Part shown: positions 4,050 through 14,479 of the stretch, piece after piece
How positions within the stretch are numbered: the first letter of the stretch is position 1
How the letters are laid out: each line of letters begins with the position of its first letter
DNA from: Desulfovibrio mangrovi
GTDB lineage: Bacteria > Desulfobacterota > Desulfovibrionia > Desulfovibrionales > Desulfovibrionaceae
Assembly (NCBI RefSeq): GCF_026230175.1
Contig: NZ_CP104208.1
Span: forward strand, 2,914,001-2,978,000
DNA length: 64,000 bases
Direction of reading: 5' to 3'
Translations under genes and position numbers: made by a program
Notes under the pieces: model-generated
What the model was told of the DNA's origin: nothing
Seen by the model: only the letters and a program-made list of their open reading frames with translations
The model's database searches: none

Positions 4050-5032
4050 ATCGCTACTCTCCTTTCGGGAAATTCGTTTGCCATTTCTGCCACTACAGGT
4101 AGTACAGCGGCTCACCGCTTCCTGTCCATCCCATGCGACCTGCGCACGGTTCTCCACCTCCCGCCCGCAGGCACAACTATTCCTTACCCCACAGGCAGCA
4201 CCACATAAATAAATATAAAAGCAAATTTAGTTCAACAGCACAGCACGTTAGCAGCTAGTGAACACGCATCTTACTGTCACTTCTCATCATATATTTTACT
4301 GCAACACCATAGACACAACTCTGCAAGTGTCGTATGTTTTAGTAAATGATACACGTACTGAGTCGTCTTTGCGTGTCGTTTTTGCAAAGGCCAACAGAAA
4401 TTTACGTAGTATCGTTGACATAATACAATGGCAAATTGAGTTGCCCTTATTCAACCCAGTGTGCACACGGCCCGAAGAGTTGGAAGGCATACCCCCCAAC
4501 CGGGCACCGCCGGTCACCGGCAAGCACAGAACGTGGCTAAGGCGTATTGCGAACGTGATAAGGAGGATAGCCCTGGCAGAGATGTTTTCCCATATCGGCA
4601 AAGTGAGTTGCCCATGAGCAGGGAAGATCTTGAGGTAAACCTGCCTGTCGTGCGCGAAAAGTCCCATTGACACGGTCCTGAAAGGACATGGATGCATGGG
4701 AACGCCGGTCACCGGAACGCGCACGACTTTTTTATTCAATAACCCCACCCCCTTTGCAAACGCGCTGCCTTTATCTTCGGCAGTAAATACACACAAACCT
4801 TGCCAAACGACCGATAAGGCATTAGACCTACCTTTCGGGTAGGATTTGACTTGTCGCCCGCTGCTGCGTATTCAGGCAACTTCCTGCCCTGTAAGGGAAT
4901 TCTCGTACTGTTTTCTCTTGATACCACTTATTTCCGCCGCCCTATCACATACCCCCTGCAGGCATGACGGACGGCCTTATTCATGATCGACGGCACAATC
5001 CGTCGCAAGCACGTGATTTCGGAGGATGCTCC
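4050..5032. other. Long region without a convincing protein gene
   Basis: About 980 bases between divergent genes. It contains a branched terminator-like RNA structure at 4647-4733, two copies of the small palindrome CCGGTCACCGG (4510-4520 and 4705-4715), an AAGGAGG at 4560-4566 with a poor-spaced 11-codon ORF at 4582-4617, an 18-codon ORF overlapping it by ATGA (4614-4670), and a small hairpin CCTACC-TTTC-GGGTAGG near 4828-4844. No ORF here has recognisable protein character. The promoters of both flanking genes must lie here. Confidence 0.6.
4647..4733 (+). ncRNA. Orphan three-way-junction RNA ending in a T-run
   Basis: Perfect 10 bp closing stem GTCGTGCGCG (4647-4656) with CGCGCACGAC (4718-4727), followed at once by six T residues (4728-4733). 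Inside it are a 6 bp stem TCCCAT (4662-4667) with ATGGGA (4696-4701), which encloses GTCC-TGAAA-GGAC, and a 5 bp stem CCGGT-C-ACCGG (4705-4715). This looks like the 3' end of a plus-strand transcript, yet no plus-strand gene lies upstream. It may be the end of a small RNA, or a terminator of a lost gene. Confidence 0.45.
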
Positions 5033-6742
5033 ATGTCCAAGCATGTTGTTGTCATCGGCGCGGTGGCGCTGGGTCCCAAGGCCGCCTGCCGATTCAAACG
5101 CCTCGAACCCGGCTCCAGGGTCACGCTTATCGATCAGGCCCCCCGCATATCCTACGGCGGCTGCGGCATTCCCTATTTTGTGTCCGGTGAAGTGAACAGC
5201 GTGACCGACCTGCAGTCCACGCCTTACCACATCATCCGTGACGCCGCGTTCTTCAAGACCAACAAGGATGTGGATGTTCTCACCAACACCCGCGCCACCA
5301 AGGTGAACCGGACCGACAAGACTGTTGAAATCGAAAACGTGCTTACCGGCCAGAAGGAAACCCTCAAGTACGACAAGCTCGTGCTGGCCATGGGTTCCAA
5401 GCCCAACCTGCCCCCCTTTGAGGGCATGAATCTTTCCGGCATTTCCGCCGCCACCAACCTGGACGAAGCCGAATTGCTGCGCAACGCCGTGGCCGCCGGT
5501 CAGGTGAACAGCGCGGTTATCGTGGGCGCAGGCTTCATCGGCCTTGAAATGGCCGTTGCCTTTGCCGACATGTGGGGTATTGAAACCACCGTGGTGGAAC
5601 TGCAGGATCAGGTGCTGCCCAATTTCCTCTCCAAGTCCATGGCCGCCATGGCGCAGCATGACCTTGAGGAAAAGGGCGTGACTGTACTGCTCGGCGAATC
5701 CGTACAGCGCTTTGAAGGCGAAGACGGTGCCGTTGCCCGCGTGGTGACCAACAAGCGCACCATCGAGGCCGACCTTGTGGTCCTTGCCGCCGGTGTTTCT
5801 CCCAACACTGCGCTGGCGAAGGACGCGGGCATCGAGTGCGACCCGCGCGGTGCCATCATTGTTGACGAATACATGCGCACCAACGACCCCGACGTTTATT
5901 CCGGCGGCGACTGCGTCACCATTCCCAACCTCGTGACCGGCAAGCGCGGCTTCTATCCCCTCGGCTCCATGGCCAACCGTCAGGGCCGCGTCATCGGCAC
6001 CAACCTTGCGGGCGGCAACGACACCTTCCCCGGCGCCGTGGGCAGCTGGGTCGTCAAACTCTTTGATCAGTCCGCATGCGGTGCAGGTCTGACCATCGAG
6101 AACGCCCTGAAGGAAGGCTTTGACGCCATCAGCGTGCATGTGGAGCAGTTCGACCGCGCCCACTTCTTCCCTGAAAAGGCGCTTATGTCCCTTGAACTGG
6201 TGGTGGACAGGCCCACCCGCCGCGTGCTCGGCATTCAGGGCATGAGTGAGCTGGGTGACGCGCTCACCGCACGCATCAACGCCGTGGTGCCGCTGCTCAA
6301 GGCTCACGACACGATTGAAGAAGTTTCCAACCTTGAAGTGGTCTACTCCCCGCCCTTCGCTTCCGCCATGGACATCGTCAATGCGCTGGGCAACGTGACC
6401 GAAAACGTGCTGGCAGGCCGCAACCACATGATGACGCCCACCGAGTTCGCCGAAAAGTGGGAAACCTGCGACACCGACGAGATGTGCTTCATCGACACCC
6501 GTCTCATCGGCAACGCCCAGCCCTATGTTGAAAAGTACCCCGGTCGCTGGAACAGCATCCCCAACGAGGAGCTCCGCGAACGCATCAGCGAAGTTCCTGC
6601 CGACAAGCCTGTTGTCGTCATCTGCAACACGGGTCTGCGCTCCTACGAAGCGATGCTGCTGCTCAACGAACTGGGTCGCACCAACGTCAAATCCGCTGCC
6701 GGCGGCATGGTGGCACAGAAAAAACTGGGTTCCGGCATCTAA
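5033..6742 (+). CDS. FAD/NAD-linked disulfide or persulfide reductase with rhodanese domain
   Basis: 569-residue fusion of a CoA-disulfide-reductase-like flavoprotein and a C-terminal rhodanese. The FAD site is VVVIGAVALGPKAA (about 5-18). The single redox Cys is C44 in SYGGCGIPYFVSG. The NAD site is VIVGAGFIGLEMA (162-174). The second FAD contact is VYSGGDC. The rhodanese part covers about 460-569 with active-site loop CNTGLRS (C531). Relatives reduce CoA persulfides, polysulfides or CoA disulfide with NADH, fitting a sulfur-metabolising anaerobe. GGAGG lies 8 bases before the ATG. It is a monocistronic unit with its own terminator. The exact substrate is inferred from family. Confidence 0.9.
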   Translation: MSKHVVVIGAVALGPKAACRFKRLEPGSRVTLIDQAPRISYGGCGIPYFVSGEVNSVTDLQSTPYHIIRDAAFFKTNKDVDVLTNTRATKVNRTDKTVEIENVLTGQKETLKYDKLVLAMGSKPNLPPFEGMNLSGISAATNLDEAELLRNAVAAGQVNSAVIVGAGFIGLEMAVAFADMWGIETTVVELQDQVLPNFLSKSMAAMAQHDLEEKGVTVLLGESVQRFEGEDGAVARVVTNKRTIEADLVVLAAGVSPNTALAKDAGIECDPRGAIIVDEYMRTNDPDVYSGGDCVTIPNLVTGKRGFYPLGSMANRQGRVIGTNLAGGNDTFPGAVGSWVVKLFDQSACGAGLTIENALKEGFDAISVHVEQFDRAHFFPEKALMSLELVVDRPTRRVLGIQGMSELGDALTARINAVVPLLKAHDTIEEVSNLEVVYSPPFASAMDIVNALGNVTENVLAGRNHMMTPTEFAEKWETCDTDEMCFIDTRLIGNAQPYVEKYPGRWNSIPNEELRERISEVPADKPVVVICNTGLRSYEAMLLLNELGRTNVKSAAGGMVAQKKLGSGI

Positions 6743-8150: not shown

Positions 8151-8528
8151 CTAACGCTTACTTATCGTAATACGACTTACGACTTTATCGTAATACTCGT
8201 TTTCCATATCCACGACCATGGCGCCCTGGCCGCGCTCCTTCATCCGGAAAAAGATGGCCTGCAGCTTCTGCATCTGGCGGTAGCGGGTCTGCTCATCCAC
8301 GTTGCCTTGCAACATCTCGATGATGGTGGTGGCGTCCTTCATGTCCTGCGCTTCAGGCGGCAGATACCCGGCGTTCTTCAACACCTTGTAAGCCATGCGC
8401 AGGTCGGGCGGCACCATGGAGTCGTCTTCCAGCTCCAGCGGCCTGCCCGCCCCCGGCAGTTGCTCAAAAGCCCCTTTTTCAGTGGCTTCAGCGATGCGCT
8501 GTTCGGCTATGGTGGCTATGATGTTCAT
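8151..8528 (-). CDS. DUF1992 (DnaJ-homologue C28-like) protein
   Basis: 125-residue protein matching the conserved domain found in DUF1992 and in eukaryotic DNAJC28: IAEQRIAEATEKGAFEQLPGAGRPLELEDD, then PPDLRMAYKVLKNAGYLPPEAQ. It lacks a J domain and has no known activity. It is predicted cytosolic and mostly helical. It is the last gene of a long minus-strand run that includes the Mla transport genes, 45 bases after the lipoprotein gene, so cotranscription is possible but functional linkage is unknown. Confidence 0.85.
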   Translation of the reverse strand: MNIIATIAEQRIAEATEKGAFEQLPGAGRPLELEDDSMVPPDLRMAYKVLKNAGYLPPEAQDMKDATTIIEMLQGNVDEQTRYRQMQKLQAIFFRMKERGQGAMVVDMENEYYDKVVSRITISKR

Positions 8529-8573: not shown

Positions 8574-9206
8574 CTAACGGGCCGCGGCAATGGCCTTCAA
8601 GCCTTCCGTACGCAGCCATTCGCCGATACGACTGGAAGCCGTGGCCATTCCCTTTGACGCCGCCTTTGCAATGGCCTGCGGGTTGAGCGTGGAAAGGGGT
8701 TCCGTCACCTCAATGCCGCGGGTGAGCAACAGACGCTTGCCCCGTTCCGTCCACAGAGACATGTGCAGGCTGATCTTCATCACGGAGTCCTGCTCGCGTA
8801 CCTCAAAGGCTTCCACCCGTCCTGTCAGCATGGCTTCATGCTCCAGCCTGTTGCGCGAAGGCCACACCAGGGTGAATTCCGACAGGCTCTGCAGGTGTGA
8901 GGCAATGCTTGCCGAGGCTATGGCCGCCGGTGCGCCCTCCCAGTACCAGCGGGAGCTGGGGGTGAGTACGTTTCCACGGGCCAGCATCACGGCCGACCTG
9001 TCGAGAGCGGGAAAGCAGTCCAGATTCTCCATGAGAATCATCGGACCGCTGAATTGACGCGATTCGCCAGCATGCTGGCCCTTTTCCGGCTGGTCAATGC
9101 GCAGAATCTGCTCGGACGGCACCGTGCCTCCCACACACCCCGCCAACACGGAAAGACACAGGGCAGCCAGAATAATACAGACAAGAGACTTTCGGGTACG
9201 AGGCAT
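8574..9206 (-). CDS. ABC-transport auxiliary lipoprotein (PqiC/LetC-like) of the Mla-type system
   Basis: 210-residue lipoprotein. The signal peptide ends in the lipobox LAGC (Cys about 23), so it is predicted to be lipid-anchored in the envelope. The mature part (EQILRIDQPEKGQ... SAVMLARGNVLTPSSRWYWEGAPAAI... LTGRVEAFEVREQ) fits the ABC_trans_aux fold of PqiC-like proteins, which accompany MCE-type lipid transporters. Its start is 3 bases after the MlaD stop, indicating tight coupling with mlaD, mlaF and mlaE. The likely role is an outer-membrane partner of the MCE bridge. The family assignment rests on context plus pattern, so the level of certainty is moderate. Confidence 0.8.
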   Translation of the reverse strand: MPRTRKSLVCIILAALCLSVLAGCVGGTVPSEQILRIDQPEKGQHAGESRQFSGPMILMENLDCFPALDRSAVMLARGNVLTPSSRWYWEGAPAAIASASIASHLQSLSEFTLVWPSRNRLEHEAMLTGRVEAFEVREQDSVMKISLHMSLWTERGKRLLLTRGIEVTEPLSTLNPQAIAKAASKGMATASSRIGEWLRTEGLKAIAAAR

Positions 9207-9208
9207 GG

Positions 9209-10168
9209 CTACTCCTTCTTTCTGTCATCCGGCCGGTAAATGACCTGCCACGGACGTTCCTTGAGGGACTGGGTAAGCACTTTAAGGTTGTGGGTCAGCT
9301 CGGCCGTATTATCCAGAATCTCTTCCACCTGTCGCTGATCATAATCCAGATCCTTCTGCAGCTGGTTGCTCAGCGTGGTGATGGAACCGCCAACGGCCCC
9401 GATCTGCGAACGCAGAGCCTGCAGCGTTGCCGCAGTATCGCCGTGCACGCCGGTGATGGCACTGTTCAGATTGTTCATGGCGGCGTTCATGTTCTGGCGT
9501 GTTTCACCTATGAACTCCCGCGTTTCCCGTATACCAGCGCTGGCTTCCTGGGTCATGGTGCGGACATCGGTATTCATTGACCCCACCATTTGATGGGCTT
9601 CCTTCAACACGGCAGTCGTTTCCGACAGTATGTTCTGCACCTGCTGCCTGTTGTCGTTATTCAGCAACTCGCGCAGGCTTTCGGCTATTTCGGAAATCTT
9701 GGGTTGCAGATTGGCGGCCATGGTGGCCATGGACGCTGCAAGCTCCATGAGGTCGGGCGTCAGTTCCGGCGGAATCTCACTGCCCGGCTTCAAGGGCGGG
9801 CCCGCCTTGCGCGAAAGGTTGAGCAACACGAAGTTATCTCCCACAATCCCTTTCTGGGAAATGGAAGCCATGGTTCCTTCATACACCGTAAACCCTTCCT
9901 GCAGGCCGACCACCACACGAACAAGGCTGGGATCCTCCCCGTCCACGGCGATTTCCAGTACACGGCCCACGTTGATGCCGGCGTACTTCACCGGACGCCC
10001 CACATCCAGATTCTTCACGCCGTTGAAACGGATGACGTACGTATCCAGCTTCTCCCAGAAACGGTGCCCGCCAAAGGCAATGATGAAAAGCCCCAGTATG
10101 AACAATCCTGCGACCACCGTTATGGCGGCGCGGATAAGTTCCTTTTTTCCTGCTGCCTTATTCAGCAC
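9209..10168 (-). CDS. mlaD: MlaD-type MCE-domain protein
   Basis: 319-residue periplasmic, inner-membrane anchored component of a phospholipid ABC transporter. One transmembrane helix (about 12-33, AAITVVAGLFILGLFIIAFGG) precedes a single MCE domain (about 38-120: YVIRFNGVKNLDVGRPVKYAGINVGRVLEI). The remaining 190 residues are long amphipathic helices with repeated Asn/Gln/Thr heptads, expected to build the lipid-conducting tube or needle. This makes it longer than E. coli MlaD (about 180 residues) and closer to Mce-type proteins with a helical needle. It lies 18 bases after mlaF and 2 bases before the lipoprotein gene. Confidence 0.93.
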   Translation of the reverse strand: MLNKAAGKKELIRAAITVVAGLFILGLFIIAFGGHRFWEKLDTYVIRFNGVKNLDVGRPVKYAGINVGRVLEIAVDGEDPSLVRVVVGLQEGFTVYEGTMASISQKGIVGDNFVLLNLSRKAGPPLKPGSEIPPELTPDLMELAASMATMAANLQPKISEIAESLRELLNNDNRQQVQNILSETTAVLKEAHQMVGSMNTDVRTMTQEASAGIRETREFIGETRQNMNAAMNNLNSAITGVHGDTAATLQALRSQIGAVGGSITTLSNQLQKDLDYDQRQVEEILDNTAELTHNLKVLTQSLKERPWQVIYRPDDRKKE

Positions 10169-10186
10169 GTTGCTTCTCCCCGTTGG

Positions 10187-10984
10187 TTAGGTATCGGTCC
10201 CTTCCCGCAGCAGACAGACGGGTGCCTGCCGGATGTTGGGCTGCCTATCCAGAAACTGTCGTATATAAATGTCTTCAGTCGTCTTCAGCTCTTCAATGCC
10301 GCCTTCAAAGAGCACCATGCCCCCGTGCAGCACCACCACATGCTCGGCAATGGTGAACAAGCTATCCAGATCATGGGTGACAACCACTACGGTCATGCCC
10401 AATGCGTCATGCAGATCAAGTATAAGCTGATCCACCTCTGCCGCAGTGATGGGATCAAGCCCTGACGAAGGCTCGTCGCAAAGCAGGATACGCGGGTCCA
10501 TGATCAACGCGCGTGCCAGCCCTCCCCGTTTGCGCATGCCGCCGGAAAGCTGGTTGGGGTAAAAATCCATGAACTTATCCAGCCCCACCAGAGAAAGTTT
10601 CAGGCGTACCATGGTGCGAATGGTAACTTCGTCCAGCTCAGTATGCTCAAGCAGCGGCAGGGATATATTCTCAGCCAGCGTCAGCGATCCGAGCAAGGCA
10701 CCGTCCTGAAACAGCACCCCCATGGATCGCTTGTGCTCATAGAAGCGTTTCGGACTCATGCCGAAAAGATCCTCACCTTCAATGAGGATCTGCCCTTGAT
10801 TGGGCACTGCCAACCCCAGAATATGCCGCAGCAACGTGGACTTGCCGCAGCCGCTTGCGCCCAGAATGACGGAAATCCTGCCGCCGGGAAGCGTAATGTT
10901 CGCATCGTGCAGGGTCACGAGTCCGGGATGCCCGACCTCAAGATTGCGGGTCACGATGGTAGGTGCTGGCGGCCGAGGCGTCAT
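10187..10984 (-). CDS. mlaF: MlaF-type phospholipid ABC transporter ATP-binding protein
   Basis: 265-residue ABC ATPase of the Mla/Ttg2A group. Walker A is GASGCGKST (42-50), the Q-loop is at Q93 (VLFQDGALLGSLTL, typical of this group), the signature is LSGGM (146-150) with the MRKRGGLARAL continuation, and Walker B is LLCDEP (167-172) with SGLDP. It energises lipid movement with permease MlaE (12 bases upstream) and MlaD (downstream). The C-terminal extension (about 245-265) is where MlaF contacts the STAS subunit MlaB in E. coli; a STAS gene sits two genes upstream here. Confidence 0.95.
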   Translation of the reverse strand: MTPRPPAPTIVTRNLEVGHPGLVTLHDANITLPGGRISVILGASGCGKSTLLRHILGLAVPNQGQILIEGEDLFGMSPKRFYEHKRSMGVLFQDGALLGSLTLAENISLPLLEHTELDEVTIRTMVRLKLSLVGLDKFMDFYPNQLSGGMRKRGGLARALIMDPRILLCDEPSSGLDPITAAEVDQLILDLHDALGMTVVVVTHDLDSLFTIAEHVVVLHGGMVLFEGGIEELKTTEDIYIRQFLDRQPNIRQAPVCLLREGTDT

Positions 10985-10996
10985 AGGCGTTCCCGT

Positions 10997-11749
10997 TTAC
11001 ATGAAGGTGTAGTTGATGGCCGTGAAAAAGAAGTCGAGCAGGATGATCAGGAAGATGGACTGCGCCACCGCACGGGTTGTGCGCCTGCCCACGTCAGCGG
11101 CTCCGTCACGCGCCATCATGCCCTGCCAGCAGGAAACGATGGTGATGGTTATGCCGAATCCCAGCGCCTTGATGAGTCCAGAGAACACATCGCCCACCGT
11201 GAGAAATTCCACACACTGGTCAAAATAGGTCTTAAGGGTCAGCCCAAGGAAAATGGCGGAGAACAGCCCACCCGCCACAATACCTACCATGTCCGCAATA
11301 AGTGTCAGAATGGGCAGCATCAGCGACATGGCTATCAGCTTGGGCCAGACGAGAAAACGGATGGGATCGATGCCGATGACCTGCAGGGCGTCGATTTCCT
11401 CCGAGATTTTCATGGTAGCCAGTTCCGCGCAGAAAGCCGCGCCGGAACGGCCTGTGAGGATGATGGCGGTAAGGAGCGGGCCAAGCTCCTTGATGATGGT
11501 GACGGACACCATGTTTGCCACGTAGCTGAGCGCACCGATCTTTTCGAGCTGACCGGCGGCCTGCAGCGCAAGGATCATGCCCGTACAGGCGGCAATGGTA
11601 GTCACAATGCCGATGGACCCTGTACCCACCGCTGTGAGATGGTTCCAGTTCTGCCACGAATAGAAGGCGCGCCTGCGCTTGAAAATGCCGCCAAGGCATT
11701 TGACCAGATCATTGATCAGGCCTGCGAGTATGGCCAACTCCTTCCACAT
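10997..11749 (-). CDS. mlaE: MlaE-type phospholipid ABC transporter permease
   Basis: 250-residue integral membrane protein of the MlaE/Ttg2B family with about five hydrophobic segments (GIVTTIAACTGMILALQA, LPILTLIADMVGIVAGGLF, IFLIILLDFFFTAINY). Family motifs are visible as ELGPLLTAIILTGRSGAAFCAELATMKISEEIDAL. It forms the inner-membrane channel for phospholipids with MlaF and MlaD. It begins 20 bases after the STAS-domain gene, which suggests coordinated translation. The operon order phosphatase, STAS, MlaE, MlaF, MlaD, lipoprotein differs from E. coli, where the STAS subunit is encoded last. Confidence 0.95.
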   Translation of the reverse strand: MWKELAILAGLINDLVKCLGGIFKRRRAFYSWQNWNHLTAVGTGSIGIVTTIAACTGMILALQAAGQLEKIGALSYVANMVSVTIIKELGPLLTAIILTGRSGAAFCAELATMKISEEIDALQVIGIDPIRFLVWPKLIAMSLMLPILTLIADMVGIVAGGLFSAIFLGLTLKTYFDQCVEFLTVGDVFSGLIKALGFGITITIVSCWQGMMARDGAADVGRRTTRAVAQSIFLIILLDFFFTAINYTFM

Positions 11750-11768
11750 GGCTGCGCCTTTTCAGTGC

Positions 11769-12074
11769 CTACATGCCGAAGAGAATGCCGACCTGCGTCA
11801 GGCTGAACAGCTTGCGCACCTGCGGAGAGGCGTCTGTGACTTCAAGTCCGCGACCGTCCATCATGAGTACCCGTCGCGCCTCGATGAGCACGGCAAGACC
11901 AGACGAATCAAGGTAGCTGACATTGCCGAGGTCCAGCTTGAGAACGCCGCTGGTCTCCTTCACTGCGTTCAGAAGGAATGCCCGAACGTCCGGCGTCACG
12001 GAATAATCAATCTCTCCGCTCAGAGAGATGAAGCCCTCGTCCTTTGTGGCTGTCCAGAGATCCTTTGCCGCCAT
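11769..12074 (-). CDS. STAS-domain protein, MlaB-like or anti-sigma-antagonist-like
   Basis: 101-residue single STAS domain. The key segment LDLGNVSYLDSSGLAVLIEARR contains the DSSGL phosphorylation motif of SpoIIAA/RsbV proteins (S57, S58). GGGGAGGA lies just upstream of the ATG at 12074. By sequence alone it would be named an anti-sigma factor antagonist. By position directly before mlaE it is a good candidate for the MlaB subunit of the lipid transporter, which is also a STAS domain. The next gene upstream is a SpoIIE-type phosphatase that could dephosphorylate it. No anti-sigma kinase gene is present in the window. Confidence 0.88.
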   Translation of the reverse strand: MAAKDLWTATKDEGFISLSGEIDYSVTPDVRAFLLNAVKETSGVLKLDLGNVSYLDSSGLAVLIEARRVLMMDGRGLEVTDASPQVRKLFSLTQVGILFGM

Positions 12075-12138
12075 TAAGTATCCTCCCCGCTCATGTGCGA
12101 CGCTCTGCCACTGCCCGGGCTGTGTGCTCCGGCCAGCA

Positions 12139-13413
12139 TCAGGACGGATCGCGCCACACTTCCAGAACAGTCTTGTCGTCGTTGCTTGGAACGCCTTCCT
12201 GCCAGAGATCCACCGCCGCCATGAGCGCCTCGCCGTAAGGCGGTTCACTCTTGGCATGCAGCAGCTCCATGACCCGCTCATCGCCGTACATGACATGGGC
12301 GGCATCATACGCTTCGGTTATGCCGTCGGATAACAGCAGAATAGCCTGGCCCGGCTGCAATTCCACCAAGGTGTCAATATACGGCACATCAGGTTCTATG
12401 CCAAGCGGCAAGCCTGTGGAAACAGATAATTCGCGTACCTCCCCGCCCGAAGCCACTATGGGCTGCAGATGTCCTGCGTTGGCAAGGGTTACCGTGTGGT
12501 TGCGTGAATCATACACCGCAATGCATACCGTAACAAACAGGCTGTTCTCCATGTCGTTAAGCAGCATTTCATTTAATATTTTCAATATATTGGATGGAGA
12601 AGATTCGATCTGTACATGGCTGCGGATGCGAGACCACACCGCAGTGCCCACCAGCGCCGCACCAAGCCCCTTGCCCGCCACGTCCGCGATGTAGGTCACC
12701 AGTCGACCGTCGGACAGGGAGATGCAGTCATACATGTCGCCGCCCACATGAATGGCGGGCTTGCTTGTGGCCCAGATGTGACTGCCATTCGGCATGGTCG
12801 GCAGCTTAGGAAGAAAGGCCTGCTGAATGCGGGCTGCAGCCTGCAACTGCACGGTCATGCGCTCCTGTTCAAGCAGAGCTTCAAGCAATTTGGAGCGCAC
12901 AAGTGCAACGCCGGCAAGATGGGCAAAGCTTTCCAGAATCTCGAGATCTTCCGTGGTGAAATCCTCACCGCTGTGAGAATTCAGCACCTGTGCGACGCCG
13001 AGCAGTTCATCCTTGTAGAGAATGGGGACGCAGATCAGCGATCGGGTCTTAAAGCCCGTTGCCGCATCCGCCACGCGATTGATGCGGACGTCATCGCCGC
13101 TGCACATGACTGAGGTCCGGGTCACAGCCACGGTACCTGCTATGCCCTCACCCATGCGGAGCGTGAAATCCCCTTCCAGTATCTGCTGTGCAATTCCCGG
13201 GGTATCATTGCGGGCAAGCGCAAAGCGCAGCACGTGCTCCGCGCTGTCGTACAGCAGAATGGACGAGGCCACAGCCTCCGTCACGTCCTGTGCCAGTTCC
13301 AGCAGTCTGGGCAGCAGTTCCGGCAAGGACTCCGTCTGCGCAAGCATCTGATTCGCCTGAATCAGTTTACGCAAACGGCTTTCCTGTCTACTCGCCATAT
13401 CCAGAAACTCCAT
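12139..13413 (-). CDS. GAF-domain SpoIIE/PP2C-type serine phosphatase
   Basis: 424-residue cytosolic protein. Residues about 28-178 form a GAF sensor domain (LAQDVTEAVASSILLYD... GEGIAGTVAVTRTSV... FKTRSLICVPILYKDELLGVAQVLN). A short coiled link is followed by a SpoIIE/PP2C phosphatase (about 195-420) with metal-binding aspartates in GGDMYD (D226) and ADVAGKG (D244) and in LLLSDGITEA. No HATPase kinase domain is attached. The start at 13413 has AGGGGGG upstream; farther upstream codons run into the heptose kinase gene. It sits 64 bases before the STAS gene, its probable substrate, in the Mla operon. The GAF ligand is unknown. Confidence 0.93.
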   Translation of the reverse strand: MEFLDMASRQESRLRKLIQANQMLAQTESLPELLPRLLELAQDVTEAVASSILLYDSAEHVLRFALARNDTPGIAQQILEGDFTLRMGEGIAGTVAVTRTSVMCSGDDVRINRVADAATGFKTRSLICVPILYKDELLGVAQVLNSHSGEDFTTEDLEILESFAHLAGVALVRSKLLEALLEQERMTVQLQAAARIQQAFLPKLPTMPNGSHIWATSKPAIHVGGDMYDCISLSDGRLVTYIADVAGKGLGAALVGTAVWSRIRSHVQIESSPSNILKILNEMLLNDMENSLFVTVCIAVYDSRNHTVTLANAGHLQPIVASGGEVRELSVSTGLPLGIEPDVPYIDTLVELQPGQAILLLSDGITEAYDAAHVMYGDERVMELLHAKSEPPYGEALMAAVDLWQEGVPSNDDKTVLEVWRDPS

Positions 13414-13453: not shown

Positions 13454-14479
13454 CTACACCCAGCGCTGCACGTCCGGTATGCCTGAACGCTTGATGGCCT
13501 CCACAAGCCCTTCCGGCGAGACGGTGGCAGCCCCCACATGCCCTACCACCACGCCCGCGGCATAGTTGGCCAGCATACAGGATTCAAGAAGCGGCAGTCT
13601 TGCGGCAAGCGCAAGCGCCGCCGTGGCAATGACGGTATCGCCCGCGCCGGTCACGTCAAAGACCTCCTGCGCCATAGTGGGAATATGCCAGACCGCATCG
13701 CGCCCTTCAAAAAGGGCCATGCCGCGCGGTCCCAGCGTGGTTAACAGCCTGTCGCAACCAAGCAGGTCAAATATGGCCTGCCCTGCCGCCACAATCTCTT
13801 CCTGCGTCCCCACGGGCATGTTTGCGCCTTCGCTGGTTTCCTTGGCGTTAGGCGTAAGCATGAACACGTTCTTGTACCACTTGAAGTTCGGCGTCTTGGG
13901 ATCAACCAGAATCAGGGGCTTGCTTGCAGAAGCGTCCCGCAACGCCACCAGGCGTTCCATGAAGTTTTGCGTAACCAGTCCCTTGCCGTAATCGGAAACG
14001 ATGCAGACTTCGTAATCATTAATGCACGCAGCAACCACGCCGAGAACTTCTTCAAGCACGGCTCCGTTGATGGGCGAAGTGTCTTCCCTGTCTATGCGCA
14101 GCATCTGCTGCCGACTGGCAATGATACGGGTCTTGCGGGTGGTCTGCCTGCCTGCGATGCGGATGAAGGTGTGATCAATGCCGTCAGTGGTCAGCAGGGA
14201 ATCCAGCAGGTCTGACCCGCTGCCCGTGCCCGTGATGCAAACAAGATGCGGCACCCCGCCAAGGCTGCACAGATTGCGGGCCACGTTGCCCGCACCACCC
14301 AGCACATGCCTGTCGTTGAAAACACGTACCACGGGAACCGGCGCTTCAGGAGAGATGCGCTCCGCTTCACCGGTGAGGTATTCATCCACCATCACATCGC
14401 CGATCAGCAGCACCTTCTTGCCCGCAAGCGAAGGAACCATGGCGGCAAGCGCCTGAGTAGTCATTCTGGATTCGGTCAT
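13454..14479 (-). CDS. hldE: D-glycero-beta-D-manno-heptose-7-phosphate kinase (HldE kinase domain)
   Basis: 341-residue PfkB-family sugar kinase equal to the N-terminal half of HldE/RfaE, which phosphorylates heptose 7-phosphate at C1 for ADP-heptose and LPS inner core. Motifs are VLLIGDVMVDEYLTGEAERISPEAPVPVV, GGAGNVARNL, VSDYGKG and the catalytic DVTGAGDTVIA near the C-terminus. The adenylyltransferase half is absent, so a separate HldC-type enzyme is expected elsewhere. It starts 5 bases after the parB stop and precedes the phosphatase gene by 40 bases. Confidence 0.95.
   Translation of the reverse strand: MTESRMTTQALAAMVPSLAGKKVLLIGDVMVDEYLTGEAERISPEAPVPVVRVFNDRHVLGGAGNVARNLCSLGGVPHLVCITGTGSGSDLLDSLLTTDGIDHTFIRIAGRQTTRKTRIIASRQQMLRIDREDTSPINGAVLEEVLGVVAACINDYEVCIVSDYGKGLVTQNFMERLVALRDASASKPLILVDPKTPNFKWYKNVFMLTPNAKETSEGANMPVGTQEEIVAAGQAIFDLLGCDRLLTTLGPRGMALFEGRDAVWHIPTMAQEVFDVTGAGDTVIATAALALAARLPLLESCMLANYAAGVVVGHVGAATVSPEGLVEAIKRSGIPDVQRWV

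Follow-up and report, generated by a model that had tools for sequence, protein, structure and literature searches.

A SpoIIE phosphatase and a STAS protein joined to an Mla-type lipid transporter operon in Desulfovibrio mangrovi, and their possible role as a phospho-switch

Here, we examine an operon in a 64,000-nucleotide stretch of the Desulfovibrio mangrovi genome (contig NZ_CP104208.1, positions 2,914,001 to 2,978,000; hereafter the window), in which genes for a GAF-SpoIIE serine phosphatase and a STAS protein precede those of an Mla-type lipid transporter. We show that a partner-switching module is attached to an MCE lipid transporter in several phyla, the form in the window being without a kinase. 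These results suggest that phosphorylation of one component may be a means by which bacteria switch a lipid transporter on and off. In the reading towards which we lean, the STAS protein would be the MlaB-type subunit of the transporter and at the same time a phospho-switch, set by a kinase and by the GAF-SpoIIE, that controls transport.

The operon of the window and its kinase-bearing counterparts

A sequence-only reading of the window had proposed six genes in series on one strand, which Pfam matches and coordinates confirm. Read along the minus strand, they encode a 424-amino-acid GAF-SpoIIE (PP2C-type) phosphatase (12139..13413, ATG at 13413; Pfam SpoIIE 2.2e-42, GAF_2 3.5e-17), a 101-amino-acid STAS protein (11769..12074; Pfam STAS_2 and STAS), the permease MlaE (10997..11749; Pfam MlaE 2.7e-74), the ATP-binding cassette (ABC) ATPase MlaF (10187..10984; Pfam ABC_tran; best NCBIfam match PRK11831 MlaF, 2.8e-59, under its cut-off), MlaD with one MCE domain and a long helical C-terminus (9209..10168; Pfam MlaD 2.3e-12) and a PqiC-like auxiliary lipoprotein (8574..9206; Pfam ABC_trans_aux 8e-08). 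The intergenic gaps from SpoIIE to the lipoprotein are 64, 19, 12, 18 and 2 bases, so that the upper end of the 3-64 bases given earlier stands and the lower end becomes 2. With an MlaE permease, an ABC ATPase and an MCE-domain protein in one operon, the transporter agrees in gene content with the MlaFEDB type. The phosphatase carries the metal-site and catalytic motifs GGD, ADVAGKG, SDG and DD, its metal site being intact as in the PP2C-type phosphatases of Rsb/Spo modules, and it is probably, judging by its domains and position, the phosphatase of the adjacent STAS protein. The start of the STAS gene is our choice: its ATG at 12074 is preceded by GGAGG, and a longer open reading frame (ORF) from 12308, which overlaps SpoIIE, was not taken.

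The STAS protein has the intact switch motif claimed for it earlier (D56-S57-S58-G59), the Ser57-Ser58 codons at 11901..11906 on the minus strand being the predicted phosphorylation site. Ser57, at the position after the conserved Asp, is presumably the equivalent of Thr52 in Escherichia coli MlaB and of Ser58 in SpoIIAA. The score against TIGR00377 (STAS-only anti-sigma antagonist) barely passes the cut-off (53.6 against 53.45 bits), which together with the DSSG motif places the protein among these antagonists, and the score against the MlaB model NF033618 mlaB_1 falls short of its cut-off (27.4 against 90 bits). Its predicted structure (predicted local distance difference test, pLDDT, 90.2) best matches RsbV in complex with RsbW, then SpoIIAA, and also matches the MlaB chains of MlaFB and MlaFEDB. 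Both serines are kept without exception across 19 aligned STAS proteins. From motif, fold and gene order, the protein is probably an MlaB-type subunit that also serves as a phospho-switch. Two possible markers were set aside: conservation of the phospho-site, because DSSG is found in all 49 STAS proteins of the family's loci whether SpoIIE is present or not, and a C-terminal extension of MlaF as a sign of STAS binding, the tails being genus-dependent and not clearly separating the loci that have STAS from those that lack it.

The earlier remark that no dedicated kinase is visible nearby was borne out: HATPase_c_2 has no match at the window's locus, the nearest being a weak one in a 627-amino-acid ORF about 50 kb away. 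Relatives fill this place. Named genomes were scanned with a STAS alignment; of 214 confirmed loci, 80 were kept, 15 of them from the window's family or order by title and 65 from others. STAS is directly followed by mlaE in 36 of the 65; an RsbW/SpoIIAB-type kinase gene lies directly upstream of STAS in 24 of these, several overlapping it, and three further loci have a SpoIIE-kinase fusion just after mlaD, shares that are not unbiased because the scan pattern (DSSGLAx[LF][IL]E) favours phosphorylatable STAS proteins. No kinase is present in the other nine loci, among which L192 lies at a contig end. HATPase_c_2 is matched by each of the 27 kinases, and none of them departs from E43 and N47. 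The 24 kinase loci comprise 10 from Planctomycetota, six from Omnitrophota, two from Auribacterota and six without a phylum, and the three fusions are from Verrucomicrobiota (L218:8852-10528, L226:8940-10616, L233:3365-5038), where phosphatase and kinase share one chain; the GAF-SpoIIE-kinase make-up was checked with Pfam in L218. SpoIIE is near in 10 of the 36 loci (four upstream, three downstream, three within the fusions), as judged, here and in the phylum-wide search below, with a hidden Markov model whose training set included four paralogues and three relocated copies. Two Omnitrophota operons (L212:8641-12244, L221:6945-10647) extend past mlaD by two genes plus one for a SpoIIE protein; the L212 set encodes a FecR-domain protein, a protein with a weak beta-barrel match and a CHASE2-SpoIIE protein, the last being the downstream SpoIIE of that locus.

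A search independent of STAS, with the kinase alignment against 247 genomes of Desulfobacterota, the window's phylum (E <= 1e-22), gave matches in 47. Thirty loci were read (up to 1.5 kb per side); mlaE is missing from 28 of these stretches, many of which are SpoIIE/STAS modules of the ordinary kind. The other two, G404 and G367, have the order GAF-SpoIIE, kinase, STAS, mlaE, mlaF, mlaD (mlaD in longer stretches), with DSSG in both STAS proteins and the GAF domain confirmed by Pfam in G367. Three genomes of their class were sampled, and two have the complete order.

To see whether the Mla-linked kinase is dedicated, we checked 17 of the 27 genomes that carry these loci, a sample with only two of the 10 Planctomycetota genomes. 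Ten of the 17, most of which are metagenome-assembled genomes of uncertain completeness, have a single HATPase_c_2 match (E <= 1e-8), whose coordinates fit the mla operon each time, and in these genomes the kinase is unlikely to serve a different Rsb module; the remaining seven have 3-7 matches. No SigB/F/G-type sigma factor, the output of Rsb/Spo modules, exceeded the TIGR02980 cut-off in 21 genomes, a strict threshold that only 1 of 14 control genomes passed. Weaker sigma matches of up to 143 bits persist, including stand-alone proteins of ~270-280 amino acids, so another sigma type is possible as a target.

Conservation and descent in Desulfovibrionaceae

Searches for mlaE (E <= 1e-65) and for GAF-SpoIIE each covered 288 family genomes. 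Window-type mlaE is found in 49 of them, and we counted 54 loci: these 49 (48 fetched and the window) and five with SpoIIE but without this mlaE, seven further fetched loci with SpoIIE elsewhere standing outside the count. The sequence-only reading had named a lack of conservation of the phosphatase-STAS-mlaE order in relatives as grounds for its refutation; the order is present in 21 of the 49 mlaE genomes, and this test thus did not refute it. The full SpoIIE-STAS-Mla arrangement thus makes up 21 of the 54 loci, in four genera; STAS-Mla without SpoIIE makes up 25, Mla alone three (one of which, in G296, starts at a contig end inside mlaE, so that STAS is not judgeable), SpoIIE-STAS without this transporter three, and SpoIIE alone two. 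The STAS gene adjoins mlaE in 46 of the 49 mlaE loci. STAS is the hinge of the locus, since some loci pair it only with the phosphatase and others only with the transporter. The SpoIIE catalytic motifs are kept in 26 of 26 locus-linked family copies, a count that ignores the G093 row, where the relocated SpoIIE was replaced by a weaker match of the same locus.

These loci occupy a common chromosomal place, with parB upstream in 52 of 53 fetched loci. A DJC28_CD protein, which marks the locus where mlaEFD is missing (in the window 8151..8528, minus strand), lies downstream in 43 of the 53, contig ends cutting off some of the remainder. Where SpoIIE-STAS lacks the transporter (L149, L151 and L152, in G150, G265 and G293), mlaEFD-pqiC is gone between STAS and DJC28. 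Genus g12 shows two further arrangements: an orthologous SpoIIE elsewhere, next to what, by eye, seems a CheA-like gene (L145, L146), and an mla locus without STAS (G093). SpoIIE paralogues of 28-34% identity in genera g4, g6 and g19 were not counted as the locus phosphatase, since the four that were read (L153-L156) lie away from mla and group with two other SpoIIE proteins of the window's genome.

Our trees of mlaE, kinase and SpoIIE are quick searches with many weak forks. The 49 family rows of mlaE lie on one side of a branch (support 99). Of 29 Mla-linked kinases, 22 fall into one supported set of 25 (97) together with three that are not Mla-linked, and the other seven, of an Omnitrophota type, stand apart. 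The family's phosphatase forms its own clade with the relocated copies (support 100). A single origin was unsupported both for all Mla-linked kinases, which form two sets, and for all Mla-linked SpoIIE, for which the tree lacks resolution; with a separate SpoIIE clade and two kinase sets, the module may have been assembled more than once.

Other features of the window and its genome are as follows. The upstream neighbour of the operon, an rfaE/hldE-like heptose kinase gene (13454..14479, minus strand), lies outside the proposed switch, and upstream of it are genes that we take to be parB and parA. Promoter-like sites (3, against 4.3 in shuffles) and terminator-like sites (10, against 8.3) are uninformative. 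A 592-amino-acid ORF at 4964-6742 resembles, by eye and with no family search, a pyridine nucleotide-disulfide oxidoreductase whose end is rhodanese-like. A second mlaE in the genome (G000:C1:463306-463947) is 39% identical to the first, with no STAS match found in its vicinity.

A possible switch and its alternatives

In the mechanism that we propose, an RsbW/SpoIIAB-type kinase would phosphorylate Ser57 of the STAS protein. If Ser57 is the equivalent of Thr52 and Ser58, the kinase would compete with MlaF for one face of STAS, and the phosphorylated form would be unable to hold the ATPase MlaF, so that transport would stop. The GAF-SpoIIE, on a signal from its GAF domain or from partners, would then strip the phosphate, and transport would resume. 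The kinase would come from the same operon in several other phyla. With none in the window, it would have to act from elsewhere there. The genome itself holds three complete SpoIIE/STAS/kinase modules at 839 kb, 927 kb and 3.02 Mb, and among 25 other genomes whose locus includes the family's SpoIIE, 24 were checked (G288 was left out) and each has HATPase_c_2 matches. All 10 genomes with kinase loci read, the window's own included, have an orthologue of the 927-kb kinase (kinase tree, Shimodaira-Hasegawa-like approximate likelihood ratio test, SH-aLRT, 99), and by presence alone this kinase is perhaps a candidate for acting in trans. More broadly, the operons could represent a new class of partner switch in several phyla, in which STAS is bound in turn by a serine kinase and by the ATPase of an MCE transporter, rather than serving a sigma-factor circuit, and in which the flow of lipids to the outer membrane is under direct, post-translational gating; we regard this wider proposal as finely balanced.

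The serine-phosphorylation switch put forward by the sequence-only reading gains partial support. In its favour are the conserved gene order, the kinases in relatives (the sole match in 10 of 17 checked genomes), the lack of a SigB/F/G-type factor over the cut-off in 21 genomes, the grouping of 22 of 29 Mla-linked kinases, the fit of the STAS model to RsbV/SpoIIAA and to MlaB, and the place of T52 of E. coli MlaB at the MlaF interface, with weaker binding in T52E and no ATPase activity in T52A (PMC7367683, PMC5016091). Several observations weigh against it. Its simple form is weakened by the conservation of Ser57 in 25 of 25 loci without SpoIIE, by SpoIIE-STAS pairs that lack the transporter (three of 54 loci) and by 13 of 24 kinase loci with no mlaF beside mlaE; no kinase was found beside mlaE in the family, within the stretches read. 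The 927-kb kinase sits with its own SpoIIE and STAS in the window's genome, and the scan pattern preselected DSSG-type STAS proteins. In addition, the family's SpoIIE does not join the other Mla-linked SpoIIE in the tree, and it stands alone in two of the 54 loci (G117, G168).

Some of these points, with others, favour a second explanation, in which the SpoIIE-STAS pair is an arm of an ordinary Rsb-type switch on an anti-sigma factor or other protein and the transporter is merely co-transcribed. The STAS protein scores closer to anti-sigma antagonists than to MlaB and is closest to SpoIIAA/RsbV in both sequence and fold, and at least one HATPase_c_2 match is present in every checked genome with the family's SpoIIE. 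SpoIIE-STAS persists without this transporter in the three loci mentioned, and in G293 both genes remain constrained: in comparison with six near relatives, nonsynonymous divergence (dN) is 0.10-0.16 for STAS and 0.11-0.14 for SpoIIE, with synonymous divergence (dS) >1 or saturated. Five control pairs that keep Mla give dN of 0.06-0.11 (STAS) and 0.07-0.13 (SpoIIE), and STAS may be a little freer in G293 than in these controls. Furthermore, mlaF lies beside mlaE in 11 of the 24 kinase loci and was not recognised there, within the stretch read and without being sought elsewhere, in the other 13, namely all 10 from Planctomycetota (L174, L175, L177, L179, L181, L182, L184, L186, L202, L234) and L228, L235 and L236, so that the ATPase, the proposed partner of STAS, would have to be encoded elsewhere in these. 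However, STAS-mla persists without SpoIIE in 25 loci, the kinase-STAS-mlaE order recurs in several phyla with the kinase as sole match in 10 of 17 genomes, and SigB/F/G-type factors stay under the cut-off in the 21 genomes, other sigma types being possible. On balance, we think this explanation unlikely, if the most serious competitor.

A less plausible account, and in our view an improbable one, makes STAS a structural MlaB, present constitutively, with a Ser57 on which ATPase activity depends, and has SpoIIE acting on another target or being a relic. Ser57 is kept in all 25 STAS-Mla loci without SpoIIE, so its conservation is no proof of phosphorylation and is uninformative about this phosphatase; likewise, no kinase was found beside mlaE in the stretches read at the 49 family mlaE loci, the window and the other 48 alike lacking a HATPase_c_2 serine kinase in the module. 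Excerpts of two eLife papers report that T52 of E. coli MlaB lies near the centre of the MlaF interface, that T52E weakens MlaF binding and that T52A keeps assembly and abolishes ATPase activity (PMC7367683, PMC5016091); the T52A result, that of a protein that binds without ATPase activity (PMC5016091), indicates that the hydroxyl matters regardless of phosphorylation. Against this account stand the intact catalytic motifs of every locus-linked family SpoIIE and the kinase and phosphatase genes attached to STAS-mla units in other phyla. Finally, an accidental neighbourhood, which the absence of SpoIIE from 28 of 49 mlaE loci might suggest, is very improbable, given an order kept in 21 of 49 mlaE genomes and four genera, only seven SpoIIE-domain matches in a genome of 3.95 Mb, and kinases beside STAS-mlaE in other phyla.

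Were the phospho-switch reading true, a bacterial ABC transporter would be controlled directly by phosphorylation, by way of a shared signalling subunit, and a widespread signalling module would gain an output of a second kind. The natural operons with kinase and phosphatase genes beside the STAS gene provide specific proteins for testing the control of MlaB.

Comparison with known systems

Phosphorylation of MlaB has been proposed without evidence in the two eLife papers, as far as their excerpts go (PMC7367683, PMC5016091), and the control of MlaB activity was described as an open question as of 2020 in that of PMC7367683. Among the matches listed by a search of open-access full text (titles and abstract starts, with subscription journals mostly and bioRxiv wholly outside), none describes mla genes together with a SpoIIE phosphatase or an RsbW-type kinase. 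Like E. coli MlaFEDB, the operon in the window has mlaE, mlaF and mlaD, and its STAS protein, too, consists of one domain and bears a hydroxyl residue at the position of the switch. It differs in a STAS protein far under the mlaB_1 cut-off, a longer MlaD, a PqiC-like lipoprotein and no adjacent mlaC, and no kinase or phosphatase gene is described with the E. coli system in the excerpts.

With the SpoIIAA/SpoIIAB/SpoIIE and RsbV/RsbW/RsbU switches of Bacillus subtilis, the operon has in common a PP2C-type phosphatase and a DSSG STAS protein, joined in relatives' operons by the HATPase_c_2 kinase. Unlike these switches, it continues into a lipid transporter, lacks the kinase in the window and is found in genomes without a SigB/F/G-type factor over the cut-off (0 of 21). 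Non-canonical STAS switches offer a further parallel: in SypA/SypE of Vibrio fischeri and HmpUVW of Nostoc, a STAS protein governs, through its phosphorylation, something other than a known sigma factor, according to PMC8256260, in which MlaB does not occur. Those systems have no known target, whereas here the operon itself suggests a direct one, MlaF.

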